Part shown: positions 1 to 4,013 of the stretch, piece after piece
How positions within the stretch are numbered: position 1 is the first letter of the stretch
Layout: every line of letters starts with the position of its first letter
Assembly: GCA_902552185.1 (NCBI GenBank)
Contig: CACDFZ010000002.1
Coordinates: forward strand, 87,512-151,511
DNA: 64,000 bases
From: an uncultured Pelagibacteraceae bacterium
Lineage (GTDB): Bacteria; Pseudomonadota; Alphaproteobacteria; Pelagibacterales; Pelagibacteraceae
Direction of reading: 5' to 3'
The notes under the pieces: generated by a model
The model's input: the letters and a program-made list of their open reading frames with translations, nothing else
Database searches by the model: none
Told to the model about the DNA's origin: nothing
Translations under genes and position numbers: made by a program

Positions 1-269
1 CAAATTAACTTATTTGTCCAACCGCTTTCTTTTTTTCCTCCAAATAAAGAACCTTGTGCTATTTTAACCTTCTCTGTCCTTGGTTCATCAACTTGTTCTA
101 TTATTTGAAATGGCAAATCTATATTTGTAACATCATCTGATTTGCCATTCCAATTTAGTTCAACTTGCTTATTTTGATCAAATAATAAAAATCTATATTT
201 TTCAGGTAAATTCTTACCCTCCTCTATGAGTTTTACTACATCTCTTTTTTCATTATCTGTTAATTTCAT
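1..269 (-). CDS. Site-specific DNA-methyltransferase, N-terminal part (truncated by the left window edge)
   Basis: Own reverse-strand translation from the ATG at 269: MKLTDNEKRDVVKLIEEGKNLPEKYRFLLFDQNKQVELNWNGKSDDVTNIDLPFQIIEQVDEPRTEKVKIAQGSLFGGKKESGWTNKLI. Resembles the N-terminus of type III/Mod-like adenine methyltransferases (YRFLLF...VELVWNGK...LPFQ..E.VDEPR). Not in the ORF track because it runs off the edge. Confidence 0.65.
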   Translation of the reverse strand, partial: MKLTDNEKRDVVKLIEEGKNLPEKYRFLLFDQNKQVELNWNGKSDDVTNIDLPFQIIEQVDEPRTEKVKIAQGSLFGGKKESGWTNKLI

Positions 270-311
270 AGTTATATTAAGAATAGCATTTCATAATTAA
301 TTTAGAAAGAA

Positions 312-380
312 TTACACGAAGTTGAAAGGCAAGAAATCGGCAAAATGAGCAAAACACTACACGAAGTTTTACACGAAGTT
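312..380 (+). repeat. Three copies of the 12-mer (T/C)TACACGAAGTT (312-323, 357-368, 369-380)
   Basis: Read directly; spacings of 45 and 12 bp, all multiples of 3, encoding LHEV in one open frame. Confidence 0.8.
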
Positions 381-413
381 TTTGAAAAAGTGTTATATTC
401 TGTATATTATTAA
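345..413 (+). CDS. Candidate 22-aa micro-ORF (MSKTLHEVLHEVFEKVLYSVYY)
   Basis: ATG at 345, TAA at 411; LHEV repeat; below the ORF track cutoff; no homology evidence. Confidence 0.25.
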   Translation: MSKTLHEVLHEVFEKVLYSVYY

Positions 414-428
414 TCAAGGGACGAGAAA

Positions 429-453
429 CAGAACGCCCCTGCGTATTGGCGTT
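429..453 (+). repeat. Degenerate repeat copy A (CAGAACGCCCCT) extending into an inverted repeat AACGCC-N10-GGCGTT
   Basis: Shares AACAGAACGCCCCT with copies at 565, 916 and 1074; stem arms 432-437 and 448-453. Confidence 0.7.
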
Positions 454-564
454 AACACTTATTAATTCACAACTTTTTTTAAATAGATCACAATACGATC
501 ACACCCAGCAAAGAAATAGCCGTTTTTTATGATCTAGAATTGTTGTATAACGTTAAAAGGTTAA

Positions 565-590
565 CGGCACCTGGCAACAGAACGCCCCTT
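565..590 (+). repeat. Repeat copy B: CGGCACCTGGCAACAGAACGCCCCTT
   Basis: Direct match to copies C and D. Confidence 0.9.
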
Positions 591-604
591 TACAAATAAA
601 ATAT

Positions 605-910
605 ATGAGTGATAGAAGCGTTATAATAAGAAAATTTGAAAATCAAATTGCTTCATATTCAGATTATCTAAGTGAGACTTCAGATAAAATTATGTATCGG
701 GAATATATCACTCCAAAAAAAGGTAAAGAAATTATACCTGGAATGGAATATGAAGAGTACGTTGATATTGATAAGAAAAATTTAAACGGTATAACTTTTG
801 ATCAAATTCATGATTTTCTCAAAGATACAAAACCTGAGAACCGAATTGATAATCTTAAAAAGTTCTTAAAATTTAATAATATTTCATATGAAACGGGTCT
901 ATGGAATTAA
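605..910 (+). CDS. Hypothetical protein (101 aa), no recognised family
   Basis: ORF track; flanked closely by repeat copies (B ends at 590, C starts at 916). Confidence 0.5.
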   Translation: MSDRSVIIRKFENQIASYSDYLSETSDKIMYREYITPKKGKEIIPGMEYEEYVDIDKKNLNGITFDQIHDFLKDTKPENRIDNLKKFLKFNNISYETGLWN

Positions 911-990
911 TGTATAGCACCTGGCAACAGAACGCCCCTTGCAAATCTTCTAAAATATTAGGAAATATAATTAAAAATTTAGAATTATAA
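901..990 (+). CDS. Candidate 29-aa micro-ORF spanning repeat copy C (MELMYSTWQQNAPCKSSKILGNIIKNLEL)
   Basis: ATG at 901, TAA at 988; overlaps the end of the 605..910 ORF by 10 nt in another frame. Confidence 0.25.
   Translation: MELMYSTWQQNAPCKSSKILGNIIKNLEL
916..940 (+). repeat. Repeat copy C: AGCACCTGGCAACAGAACGCCCCTT
   Basis: 24 of 25 bases identical to copy B. Confidence 0.9.
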
Positions 991-1073
991 ATTTTTGCCG
1001 CCCTATTGTCGCTCTTTCAAGTAAATTTAAAGTTTAATTTATTCAAATTTATTGTATTTTTGCTTAAAGTTCA

Positions 1074-1099
1074 CGGCACCTGGCAACAGAACGCCCCTT
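1074..1099 (+). repeat. Repeat copy D: CGGCACCTGGCAACAGAACGCCCCTT
   Basis: Identical to copy B over 26 bp. Confidence 0.9.
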
Positions 1100-1222
1100 A
1101 CTTGATTATGATATTAATACTTTAATTCATGCAAAAAATATTAAGAAAATATAGCCGTCCCCCACATAAACAATTTATCATTTTTAGGGCCTTTTTTTTT
1201 CATTTAAATTTTAAAAGTTTTT

Positions 1223-1789
1223 TTATTTTTTTTCATCCTCTGGTGACTGTTCTTCTTGAGGTTCAGATTTAACCTCCTCTTCGGTCGGCTGTTCTTCTTG
1301 AGGTTCAGGTTTTACTTCCTCTTCGGTCGGCTGTTCTTCTTGAGGTTCAGCTACGACTTCTTTTCTAAAATCTCTTCTAGGACTATCAGGTGTTCTAGTT
1401 ACGCTTCTTGATGACAAATTATCTCGTTGTCTAAAATAAAAATAAGCACCTATCGAAATAACTAGTATTGAACCAAATATATATAGAGCTAACCTCAAAT
1501 AATTTGTTCCCGAATCTTTCGAGCTATCTATTTCTTTACTTGCTTCTTGTGCTTTTGCTTCAGCTTGAGCCTTCGCTTCCGCTTGAGCTTGTGCTTCAGC
1601 TGCTGCTTTAGCTTCCGCTTCTGCCTGAGCTTGTGCTTCAGCTTTAACCTCCTCTTCAGTTGTTTTCGTTTCCGAAGATTCCTTTACAATTACCTCTGTT
1701 TTTTTATTTCCCTCACTAACTTCAGGTTCAGTATTGAAAACTCCAGTTGCTAAAATAACTGAGACTAAAGCAACAAGTAATAAATTCAT
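1223..1789 (-). CDS. Low-complexity single-pass membrane protein, Ala/Glu/Gln/Lys-rich (TolA-like composition) with Glu/Pro-rich C-terminal repeats
   Basis: N-terminal hydrophobic segment MNLLLVALVSVILATG, EAKAQAEAKAQ region, TM YLRLALYIFGSILVISIGAYFYF, then three EPQEEQPTEEEVK repeats. Confidence 0.65.
   Translation of the reverse strand: MNLLLVALVSVILATGVFNTEPEVSEGNKKTEVIVKESSETKTTEEEVKAEAQAQAEAEAKAAAEAQAQAEAKAQAEAKAQEASKEIDSSKDSGTNYLRLALYIFGSILVISIGAYFYFRQRDNLSSRSVTRTPDSPRRDFRKEVVAEPQEEQPTEEEVKPEPQEEQPTEEEVKSEPQEEQSPEDEKK
1247..1361 (-). repeat. 42-bp tandem repeat (about 2.7 units) coding for EPQEEQPTEEEVK(P/S)
   Basis: Units begin at 1247, 1289 and 1331 (exact period 42). Confidence 0.85.
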
Positions 1790-1820
1790 AATTTACTATC
1801 TTATCACAAAGTCACTCGTA

Positions 1821-1934
1821 ATGACTCGTAATTTTCTTCAGTTTCTGTGTTTTGCAATCATGACTTTGGTGCTATTTAAGGATTCTAGAGACTGGATTAA
1901 GGGAACCTGGCAACAATGGGTTAAAAGCACCTGA
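1821..1934 (+). CDS. Candidate 37-aa small membrane protein (MTRNFLQFLCFAIMTLVLFKDSRDWIKGTWQQWVKST)
   Basis: Sub-ORF of track ORF 1734..1934, whose upstream part is antisense to the 1223..1789 gene; hydrophobic segment then charged tail; C-terminus encoded by the degenerate repeat. Confidence 0.4.
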   Translation: MTRNFLQFLCFAIMTLVLFKDSRDWIKGTWQQWVKST

Positions 1935-1949
1935 AAACAAAACGCCCCT
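1904..1949 (+). repeat. Degenerate double repeat copy E (AACCTGGCAACAATGG + AGCACCTGAAAACAAAACGCCCCT)
   Basis: Two overlapping partial matches to the B/C/D consensus. Confidence 0.7.
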
Positions 1950-2001
1950 ATTAATTAAATAGTCGCATTGATTAAAATGGATTTTAATTTAAGTTTAAAA
2001 A

Positions 2002-2121
2002 ATGGAATTAATTTTTATTATAGTAGCATTATTTTTGATTTATTATCTTTTAAGACCAACGTCGAAAGAGGAATTAAAGCGATTTAAAAATAAAGATAAT
2101 TGGTCAAATATGGGTTTTTAA
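2002..2121 (+). CDS. Candidate 39-aa small TM protein (MELIFIIVALFLIYYLLRPTSKEELKRFKNKDNWSNMGF)
   Basis: Manual translation; N-terminal hydrophobic helix with basic tail; below the ORF track cutoff. Confidence 0.4.
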   Translation: MELIFIIVALFLIYYLLRPTSKEELKRFKNKDNWSNMGF

Positions 2122-2198
2122 AATATATATTTATCTCCTAGATAAAGTAATAAACCAATTGCAATTCCAGTTAATATCCAAAAAAACTTATCTCTCAT
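2118..2198 (-). CDS. Candidate 26-aa small TM protein (MRDKFFWILTGIAIGLLLYLGDKYIF)
   Basis: Start codon overlaps the 3' end of the upstream minus-strand MazG-like gene (stop at 2188), suggesting translational coupling. Confidence 0.35.
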   Translation of the reverse strand: MRDKFFWILTGIAIGLLLYLGDKYIF

Positions 2199-2565
2199 TA
2201 ACAAACTTTTCTAGGTTTGGTTTGAAATAATTTGGACCTTTCATTACTTTGCCGAATTCGTTGTAAATTGGTTTGCCATCTTTGCCAAGTTTACTCATAT
2301 TAGAATTTTGTACTTCATCAAAGCACTTATCTAAGTTGATCCCAAAAGCATGACCAGCTCCATAGGTTACGTAAAGTATGTCAGTCAACGCGTCCGCGAC
2401 CTCTTTGATGTCTCTGTCCTTCAAGGCAATTTTAAATTCCTCTAATTCTTCAGCTATTAAGTCGTATCTTAGATTTACAATTTTTTCTTCTGGAAATTTA
2501 GCTTTATTTTTAACCTCTTGTCCAAATGTTTTCATAAACTTTCCAACTTTTTCAAAATTACTCAT
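2188..2565 (-). CDS. MazG-like / phosphoribosyl-ATP pyrophosphohydrolase-family protein
   Basis: Helical EELEEF...DIKEVADALTDILYVTYGAG motif typical of all-alpha NTP pyrophosphatases. Confidence 0.75.
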   Translation of the reverse strand: MSNFEKVGKFMKTFGQEVKNKAKFPEEKIVNLRYDLIAEELEEFKIALKDRDIKEVADALTDILYVTYGAGHAFGINLDKCFDEVQNSNMSKLGKDGKPIYNEFGKVMKGPNYFKPNLEKFVNER

Positions 2566-2624
2566 ATTTCCGCCTTTATATTTTTTTAATTTAAATATAA
2601 ATATAATATATCAAAGAATCATAT

Positions 2625-4013
2625 ATGAAGTATAGAAACGAGTTTGATAGTATAGGCAAAATTAAAGTACCTGGTGATAAGTATTGGGGTGCTTCAACTG
2701 AAAGATCTAATAAGTACTTTAACATTGGTGATTTTTTAGTAAGACCAATAGTTATACACTCTATCGCAATTATAAAAAAAGCTGCGGCTATTGTTAATAA
2801 AAATAATGGTGATTTAGATACAAAAATTTCAAAATACATAGTTAAAGCATCGGAGGAAGTAATAAAGGGAAAATTAGACGATCATTTTCCTCTGAAAGTT
2901 TGGCAAACAGGATCTGGTACACAAACTAATATGAATGTGAATGAGGTTATTGCAAATAGAGCTATAGAAATGCTTGGAGGAAAACTTGGGGCAAAAAAAC
3001 CTGTGCATCCAAATGACCACGTAAATAAATCACAATCAACTAATGATGTATTTCCCTCTGCTATGCACATTTCTATTGCAATAAAAACTAAACAAAAACT
3101 CTTGCCGTCATTAAAAATATTGGAGAAAGAGCTATTTAAAAAAGTAAAAGAATTTAAAAAAATCGTTAAAGTTGGAAGAACACATTTACAAGATGCAACA
3201 CCAATAACATTGGGGCAAGAATTTTCAGGATATCATGCGCAACTTAAAAAATGTATAAATAGGATTGAGAATGCTTTAGAAGAAATTTATTATCTTGCTC
3301 AGGGCGGGACTGCAGTTGGAACTGGATTAAATACAAAAAAAAATTTTGACACCAAAATCATAAAAGAAATTTCAAAAATAACAAAATTACCCTTTAAACC
3401 AGCCAAAAATAAATTTGCCGCTCTTGCAGCTCACGATGCGATTGTAAATTTTTCAGGTACAATGAATACTACAGCTGTCTGTTTAATGAAGATCGCTAAC
3501 GACATTAGATTTCTTGGTTCAGGACCACGTGCAGGGTATGGAGAGTTGATATTACCATCCAATGAACCTGGTTCTTCAATTATGCCAGGAAAAGTTAACC
3601 CAACGCAGTCTGAAGCGGTTACTATGGTTTGCGTAAAAGTTATTGGTAACCACAATGGAATAACTATGGCAGGCTCTCATGGTCATTTTGAATTAAATGT
3701 TTTTAAACCTTTAATTATTCATAACATTCTTCAGTCTATTGAGATAATGGCGGACTCATCAAAAACTTTTGCTCATTATTGTATTAAGGGAATTAAAGCT
3801 GACAAAAAAAGAATCAAAAGCCTACTTGATAATTCTTTAATGATTGTTACAGCGCTAGCCCCTAAAATAGGTTACGACAATGCTGCCAAAATTGCTAAAA
3901 CAGCACACAAAAATGGAACTACATTAAAAGAAGAAGTTTTGAAAACTAATCTTATTTCAGAAAAAGACTATGATAAGATTATGGATCCAATTCAAATGAC
4001 CAAGCCTAAATAA
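2625..4013 (+). CDS. fumC: Class II fumarate hydratase
   Basis: [18 protein letters not shown] and [13 protein letters not shown] signatures. Confidence 0.95.

Follow-up and report, generated by a model that had tools for sequence, protein, structure and literature searches.

Tandem islands downstream of ssrA have been described for Dehalococcoides, each closed by a ~20-bp duplicate of the gene's 3′ end. Of 31 such islands, 16 have a serine recombinase module (dsiAB) and about half are without an integration module; the vcr islands measure ~12 kb (PMC3146451). The part of PMC10872708 considered here describes the additive island fGI-2 of Methylophilaceae, in which the last 20 bp of tRNA-Lys recur and bound inserts of 330 bp to 42 kb. 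Small cassettes at tRNA genes, marked by a direct repeat of a tRNA fragment, are known from Candidatus Actinomarinales (PMC7771536). Published work on SAR11 islands included a search for attC sites, and none were found (PMC2217521). In HTCC1062 the tmRNA gene lies directly between thyX and COG4696 (PMC2704228).

The DNA analysed here (the window) is a stretch of 64 kb, bases 87512–151511 of contig 2, from the genome assembly of an uncultured Pelagibacteraceae bacterium (821 kb, 66 % complete). SAR11 are the most abundant marine bacteria; their genomes are known to be very small and conserved and to hold few mobile elements. A scan of the 64 kb with GCACCTGGCAACAGAACGCCCC gave three exact copies (repeats B, C and D) and one copy with three mismatches (repeat E), all on the + strand, and no copy beyond these four anywhere in the window (Table 1); the number expected in shuffled window sequence was 0. 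A 14-bp exact part of the repeat (repeat A) and a half copy were also located, and the spacings between successive repeats were 149, 350, 159 and 851. The repeats were thereby confirmed as real and non-random. A first-pass annotation, made from the letters of the window, had reported these copies at coordinates that proved to be 1–2 bases off; its spacings, its degenerate copies, their single orientation and their absence from the rest of the window were borne out.

Table 1. Features of the ssrA-associated array in the window. Iterons are the short direct repeats inside cassette ends; cassette boundaries beside degenerate repeats are approximate.
Feature	Position	Strand	Content or basis
Cassette 1, right end	1..426	-	Start of type III methyltransferase (Mod), ATG at 271
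Cassette 1, right-end iterons	314-323, 359-368, 371-380		ACACGAAGTT
Repeat A	427..440	+	Partial copy of ssrA 3′ end (AACAGAACGCCCCT); cassette 1/2 joint
Cassette 2	441..566	+	Gene-less, left-end fused to right-end sequence; GATCACA iterons 486-492, 497-503
Repeat B	567..590	+	Full ssrA 3′-end copy
Cassette 3	589..916	+	101-aa ORF (605-910, +)
Repeat C	917..940	+	Pattern scan, ssrA alignment
Cassette 4	939..1075	+	Gene-less; GCCGCCCT-type iterons 997-1004, 1008-1015
Repeat D	1076..1099	+	Pattern scan, ssrA alignment
Cassette 5	1098..1926	-	188-aa Ala/Glu-rich protein (1223-1789, -)
Cassette 5, right-end iterons	1815-1822, 1825-1832		CTCGTAAT
Half copy	1904..1915	+	AACCTGGCAACA; immediately left of repeat E
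Repeat E	1927..1950	+	Degenerate distal copy
Last-cassette remnant (probable)	1951..2117	+	39-aa ORF 2002-2121
Conserved right flank	2118..4013		28-aa ORF (-), 125-aa COG4696-like/MazG-like gene (-), fumarase fumC (+)

An additional exact copy emerged from a whole-genome search; it lies outside the window, 5.3 kb before repeat B, within ssrA, a permuted two-piece tmRNA gene situated 4.7 kb to the left of the window. ARAGORN identified a complete permuted tmRNA gene at this upstream copy (tag ANNKFALAA) and placed the motif ~250 bases into the 310-base gene. All three full window copies were matched by the end of Rfam alpha_tmRNA (RF01849) with 25–26 bits (gathering cut-off 50); they do not amount to a complete tmRNA with tag reading frame, the full gene being outside the window. 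Alignment of repeats B, C and D with ssrA gave agreement over GCACCTGGCAACAGAACGCCCCTT and sharp divergence on both sides. Because the upstream copy, Rfam, ARAGORN and the alignment agree, the repeats are seen to duplicate the 3′ terminus of ssrA (its last ~24 bp). The first-pass annotation had found no fitting family name; the Rfam match supplies one, and the sequence is a classic ssrA attachment site. Its suggestion of relics of a duplicated gene tail stands only in that the tail belongs to ssrA, whereas its option of a recombination or insertion site was correct, the copies being ssrA-derived cassette joints. A coding repeat (GTWQQNAP frame) was rejected, since the copies lie at cassette borders, outside ORFs or at ORF ends.

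The same annotation had also offered a structured RNA element, that is, a processing or regulatory hairpin, and the sequence is indeed part of tmRNA, with a GGGGC:GCCCC stem in ssrA. This 3′ stem is intact in 76 of 76 ssrA genes but in only 40 of 194 copies, in which the 3′ side stays GCCCC and the 5′ side drifts; the copies, moreover, sit at cassette borders and travel with the cassettes, which makes an RNA element most improbable.

Cassette 1 is a type III restriction-modification cassette that spans from ssrA to 427, with the rest of Mod, and Res farther left, outside the window. The methyltransferase noted in the first-pass annotation is therefore cargo, as the gene sits within this cassette. 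The right-end ACACGAAGTT iterons of cassette 1 match the left-end ACACGAAGTTT iterons adjoining ssrA, ACACGAAGTT(T) words being present at both ends. In cassette 2, bases 1–41 match left ends in other genomes, 1 bp off the repeat, and bases 46–122 match right ends, 7 bp before the next repeat; in those genomes the counterparts of the two halves lie 0.3–2.5 kb apart, and cassette 2 looks like the product of a deletion via the GATCACA words. Cassette 3, which is without iterons and whose 101-aa ORF gave no Pfam match, has 95–96 % identity to G007.1 and G022.5 from two other species, with homology stopping at the repeats. Cassette 4 is 97 % identical to G134.1 end to end, and its left 72 bp also open an 810-bp cassette in G027. 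Family members of the cassette 5 protein occur in cassettes G028.4 and G122.3. The last-cassette remnant (1951..2117) has no recognisable distal repeat.

The motif was detected in 142 of the 169 genomes of the genus, including 14 of 14 among those at least 90 % complete, and a reversed control pattern gave zero matches in the genus genomes. At family level it was present in 344 of 396 genomes and in 13 of the 14 genera of Pelagibacteraceae. The 81 loci fetched, with a bias towards multi-copy ones, show same-orientation arrays of up to eight copies; these numbers are lower bounds, as most of the genomes were assembled from single cells or metagenomes. A site matrix applied to these loci gave 280 copies oriented as in ssrA and one in the reverse direction. 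The array locus is fixed between thyX-ssrA and the block of 28-aa ORF, COG4696-like gene and fumC, and right-flank genes were found downstream of the array in 55–57 of the 81 loci; single-site loci were also fetched from relatives. The first-pass annotation had proposed looking for further copies in SAR11 genomes, for clustering in hypervariable islands and for different inserts in close relatives: the sites are genus- and family-wide, cluster in one variable island and flank different inserts in relatives. No description of an ssrA cassette array was found in the SAR11 literature, which was covered incompletely. The array is apparently easy to overlook, given that the HTCC1062 locus looks like an empty site (PMC2704228) and that earlier island work sought attC (PMC2217521).

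In several genomes (L118 2111-2401; G052, G054, G055, G078, G129, G131, G135 and G137), a 272-bp repeat-to-repeat unit (71-aa ORF), both sites included, occupies a second place in the chromosome; it has 99 % identity to ssrA-array units of G044, G088 and G142.

The 81 loci comprise 198 inter-repeat units with a median size of 771 bp, and 113 of the 198 hold just one ORF of 50 aa or more; among ORFs of at least 80 aa, 223 are directed towards ssrA and 67 away from it. Full-length homologous cassette pairs have the same orientation in 78 of 78 cases and a different array index in 64 of 78. Many homologous pairs align from first base to last, homology ending at the repeats; G031.5 and G155.1, for example, share 99 % identity over 1339 bp, compared with 85.5 % for the thyX flank (median flank identity over all cassette pairs, 84 %). 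Because pairs share exact ends, are shifted in index and exceed the flank in identity, repeat-bounded units move laterally between species, with exact boundaries. A rival view, in which ancestral tandem duplications recombined by ordinary homology through their short repeats, would draw on the ability of direct repeats to recombine and on the array segments shared by G041.5-7 and G110.1-3, an exchange that could be ordinary homologous recombination via the flanks. As an account of the arrays it is improbable: the repeats (24–34 bp) are short for homologous insertion, and the cassettes are non-homologous, with exact ends, one orientation and an order that differs among species.

The cargo is mostly without known function. 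Identified genes encode methyltransferases, restriction-modification systems (types I and III), Fe/Mn superoxide dismutase, SelO, MORN and DUF2784 proteins, and two large inserts (G249, 13.6 kb; G222, 10 kb) are polysaccharide clusters. A signal-peptide module of ~39 nt, ATGAAAAAACTTTTAGCGATCGTGGTTCTGGGTTTGTTG (MKKLLAIVVLGLL), stands at the start of cassette proteins from 26 unrelated families (ORFs in L050, L051, L064, L110, L119 and others). Between families, nucleotide identity is 78 % over the first 51 nt, compared with 30–31 % upstream and downstream, and exact genus matches, among the matches listed, are largely on array contigs; the segment, which occurs with and without lipobox, has the appearance of an N-terminal module that recombines. 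A secreted protein family of ~190–220 aa with the DIRDFQIEGMSIGDSLLD motif (L105, L194, L104) is frequent in cassettes and also occurs as tandem paralogs; one member tested gave no Pfam match.

The repeats are very probably attR-type attachment copies, left behind as small circular cassettes were inserted one after another, site-specifically, at the 3′ end of ssrA. Each such cassette would terminate in a copy of 22–34 bp of this end, so that an intact ssrA would be rebuilt and the old 3′ end displaced; repetition would yield a head-to-tail additive array that grows on the ssrA side. That the 3′ stem is intact in all 76 ssrA genes fits insertion that leaves the gene whole. The farther a repeat copy lies from ssrA, the more degenerate it tends to be (rho -0.39, p 3e-8), which fits entry of new units at ssrA, with older ones pushed outward. 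The cassettes would have to move in trans, because they encode no tyrosine recombinase, and the enzyme might be brought in transiently (phage, satellite) or might be the host's single conserved non-Xer tyrosine recombinase.

Many cassettes share their end sequences (left, GCGTATTGGCGTTAACACTTATTAATTCACAAC; right, TTGTATAACGTTAAAAGGTTAAGGGCACC), inside both of which lie iterons with a period of ~11 bp, in many cassettes ~45–65 bp inside the left end and 60–100 bp inside the right end; some cassettes are without iterons. The iteron words vary among cassettes (GATCACA, GGACTCA, GGGCACA, CTCGTAAT, CACGTAAT, GGCGGAAT, TGCCGAAAT and ACACGAAGTTT). The word is the same at both ends in 56 of 134 cassettes (~40 %), compared with 19 expected, a result reached in 0 of 10,000 permutations. 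We infer that the iterons act as arm sites flanking the core in the circular form, like attP; a tyrosine recombinase would be expected to have its arm sites arranged in this way.

No tyrosine integrase was found in any array examined, nor any integrase in the large cassettes of G249 and G222. On balance we lean towards an integrase provided in trans by a phage, satellite or plasmid that is autonomous but rare and has ssrA as its integration site; the cassettes would then be CIME-like parasites with several arm specificities. Iterons that vary and yet are matched within a cassette point to several integrase specificities, and CIMEs and the Dehalococcoides ssrA islands without integration module (PMC3146451) are precedents. 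Such an element, or an autonomous ICE/IME parent with the same att specificity, was however not found in the 169 genus genomes, IMG/VR, or the phage or plasmid collections, nor did the searches link a recombinase gene to the site, detect attP among viral contigs, phages or plasmids, or reveal a circular form. The right-end and left-end patterns had 0 matches in IMG/VR; INPHARED matches were at chance level, and plasmids gave none. In named genomes, all 34 matches of the right-end pattern were Pelagibacteraceae/Pelagibacterales (SAR11) records. IMG/VR core matches with strong site scores were rejected as phage attP, being tmRNA genes or tmRNA-like. Separately, IMG/VR contigs L006-L013 carry permuted tmRNA genes, most with the tag ADENLALAA, which may be viral tmRNA or host DNA.

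That the conserved tyrosine recombinase of Pelagibacteraceae inserts the cassettes, in an integron-like manner with ssrA as docking site, is possible though on the unlikely side. In the genus genomes (n=169), PF00589 gave one protein in most genomes, and the matches listed are outside the array loci; this recombinase (~317 aa; for example, G137:C1:68185-69135) has a conserved locus beside transporter and polysaccharide genes (LPS variable region) and scores 72–88 bits as a Xer equivalog, against a cut-off of 330, so it is not one. It occurs in ~103 of 111 family genomes (53–100 % identity), and the sister family, from which the ssrA motif is absent, gave only distant Xer-like matches. These properties make it a candidate enzyme for the cassettes; a single conserved enzyme, however, does not account for the wide differences in iteron words between cassettes, it may merely substitute for XerC/D in chromosome dimer resolution, and normal divergence of ssrA could explain why the sister family does not have the motif. 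The fuller proposal of an integron-like system, in which a non-Xer core recombinase would insert circular one-gene cassettes at ssrA via matched, diversifying arm words and so distribute secreted, restriction and surface genes from a common pool in SAR11, is doubtful.

XerC/XerD equivalogs are apparently missing from Pelagibacteraceae, whose one tyrosine recombinase is divergent and adjoins the polysaccharide region (for example, L126 498-1451; L127 1686-2639; G171, G200 and G235). PF00239 serine recombinases were detected in two of the 169 genomes, one of them inside an array cassette, and this class is therefore not the general enzyme. The single cassette concerned, G035.1 (7.5 kb), encodes a 246-aa, weakly CcrB/XisF-like serine recombinase (L068 9749-10486).

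A family-wide, gene-sized array at one essential RNA gene offers a concrete path for the exchange of accessory genes in SAR11. The exchanged genes include restriction-modification and surface-polysaccharide clusters, which are relevant to phage. With a host enzyme named as candidate, the movement of integrase-less cassettes can here be put to a direct test.

Islander-type tDNA/ssrA islands have an intact target gene at one end and a displaced 3′ fragment at the other, as does the SAR11 array, in which a tyrosine integrase gene within the island is missing. Like additive flexible genomic islands, it has variable cassettes at one conserved locus, each with the target 3′-end repeat. With CIMEs it shares tandem accretion and attL/attR-flanked DNA devoid of integrase and transfer genes, the serine recombinase in G035 cassette 1 being the one exception; CIMEs derive from ICEs or IMEs, and here the cassettes are gene-sized and no ICE/IME relic was seen. 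Single-gene cassettes, one docking site and one site orientation recall integron arrays, but the SAR11 array is not an integron: no intI adjoins an attI, the site consensus is the ssrA 3′ end, not the R and L boxes and imperfect palindrome of attC, and genes lie in both orientations. A XerCD pdif module was rejected, as no Xer equivalog was present among the three conserved recombinases scanned; the site, inspected by eye, is presumably not dif-like. The Dehalococcoides ssrA islands resemble the array in their tandem units, their ssrA 3′-end copies and the many units without integration module, and differ from it in that SAR11 units have a median of 771 bp, no tyrosine integrase, a permuted two-piece ssrA and matched end iterons. 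Methylophilaceae fGI-2 likewise has a recurring target-gene end and mostly unknown genes in streamlined aquatic bacteria; it uses tRNA-Lys, and the part of PMC10872708 considered here reports neither iterons nor a cross-species test of exact boundaries. The Actinomarinales cassettes, from a different phylum, are at several tRNAs inside an envelope-polysaccharide island (PMC7771536). The SAR11 array thus files under the tDNA/ssrA additive islands, of known kind. It stands apart from those described in that its units are gene-sized and integrase-less, its target is a permuted ssrA, its variable end words are matched, and it is family-wide.
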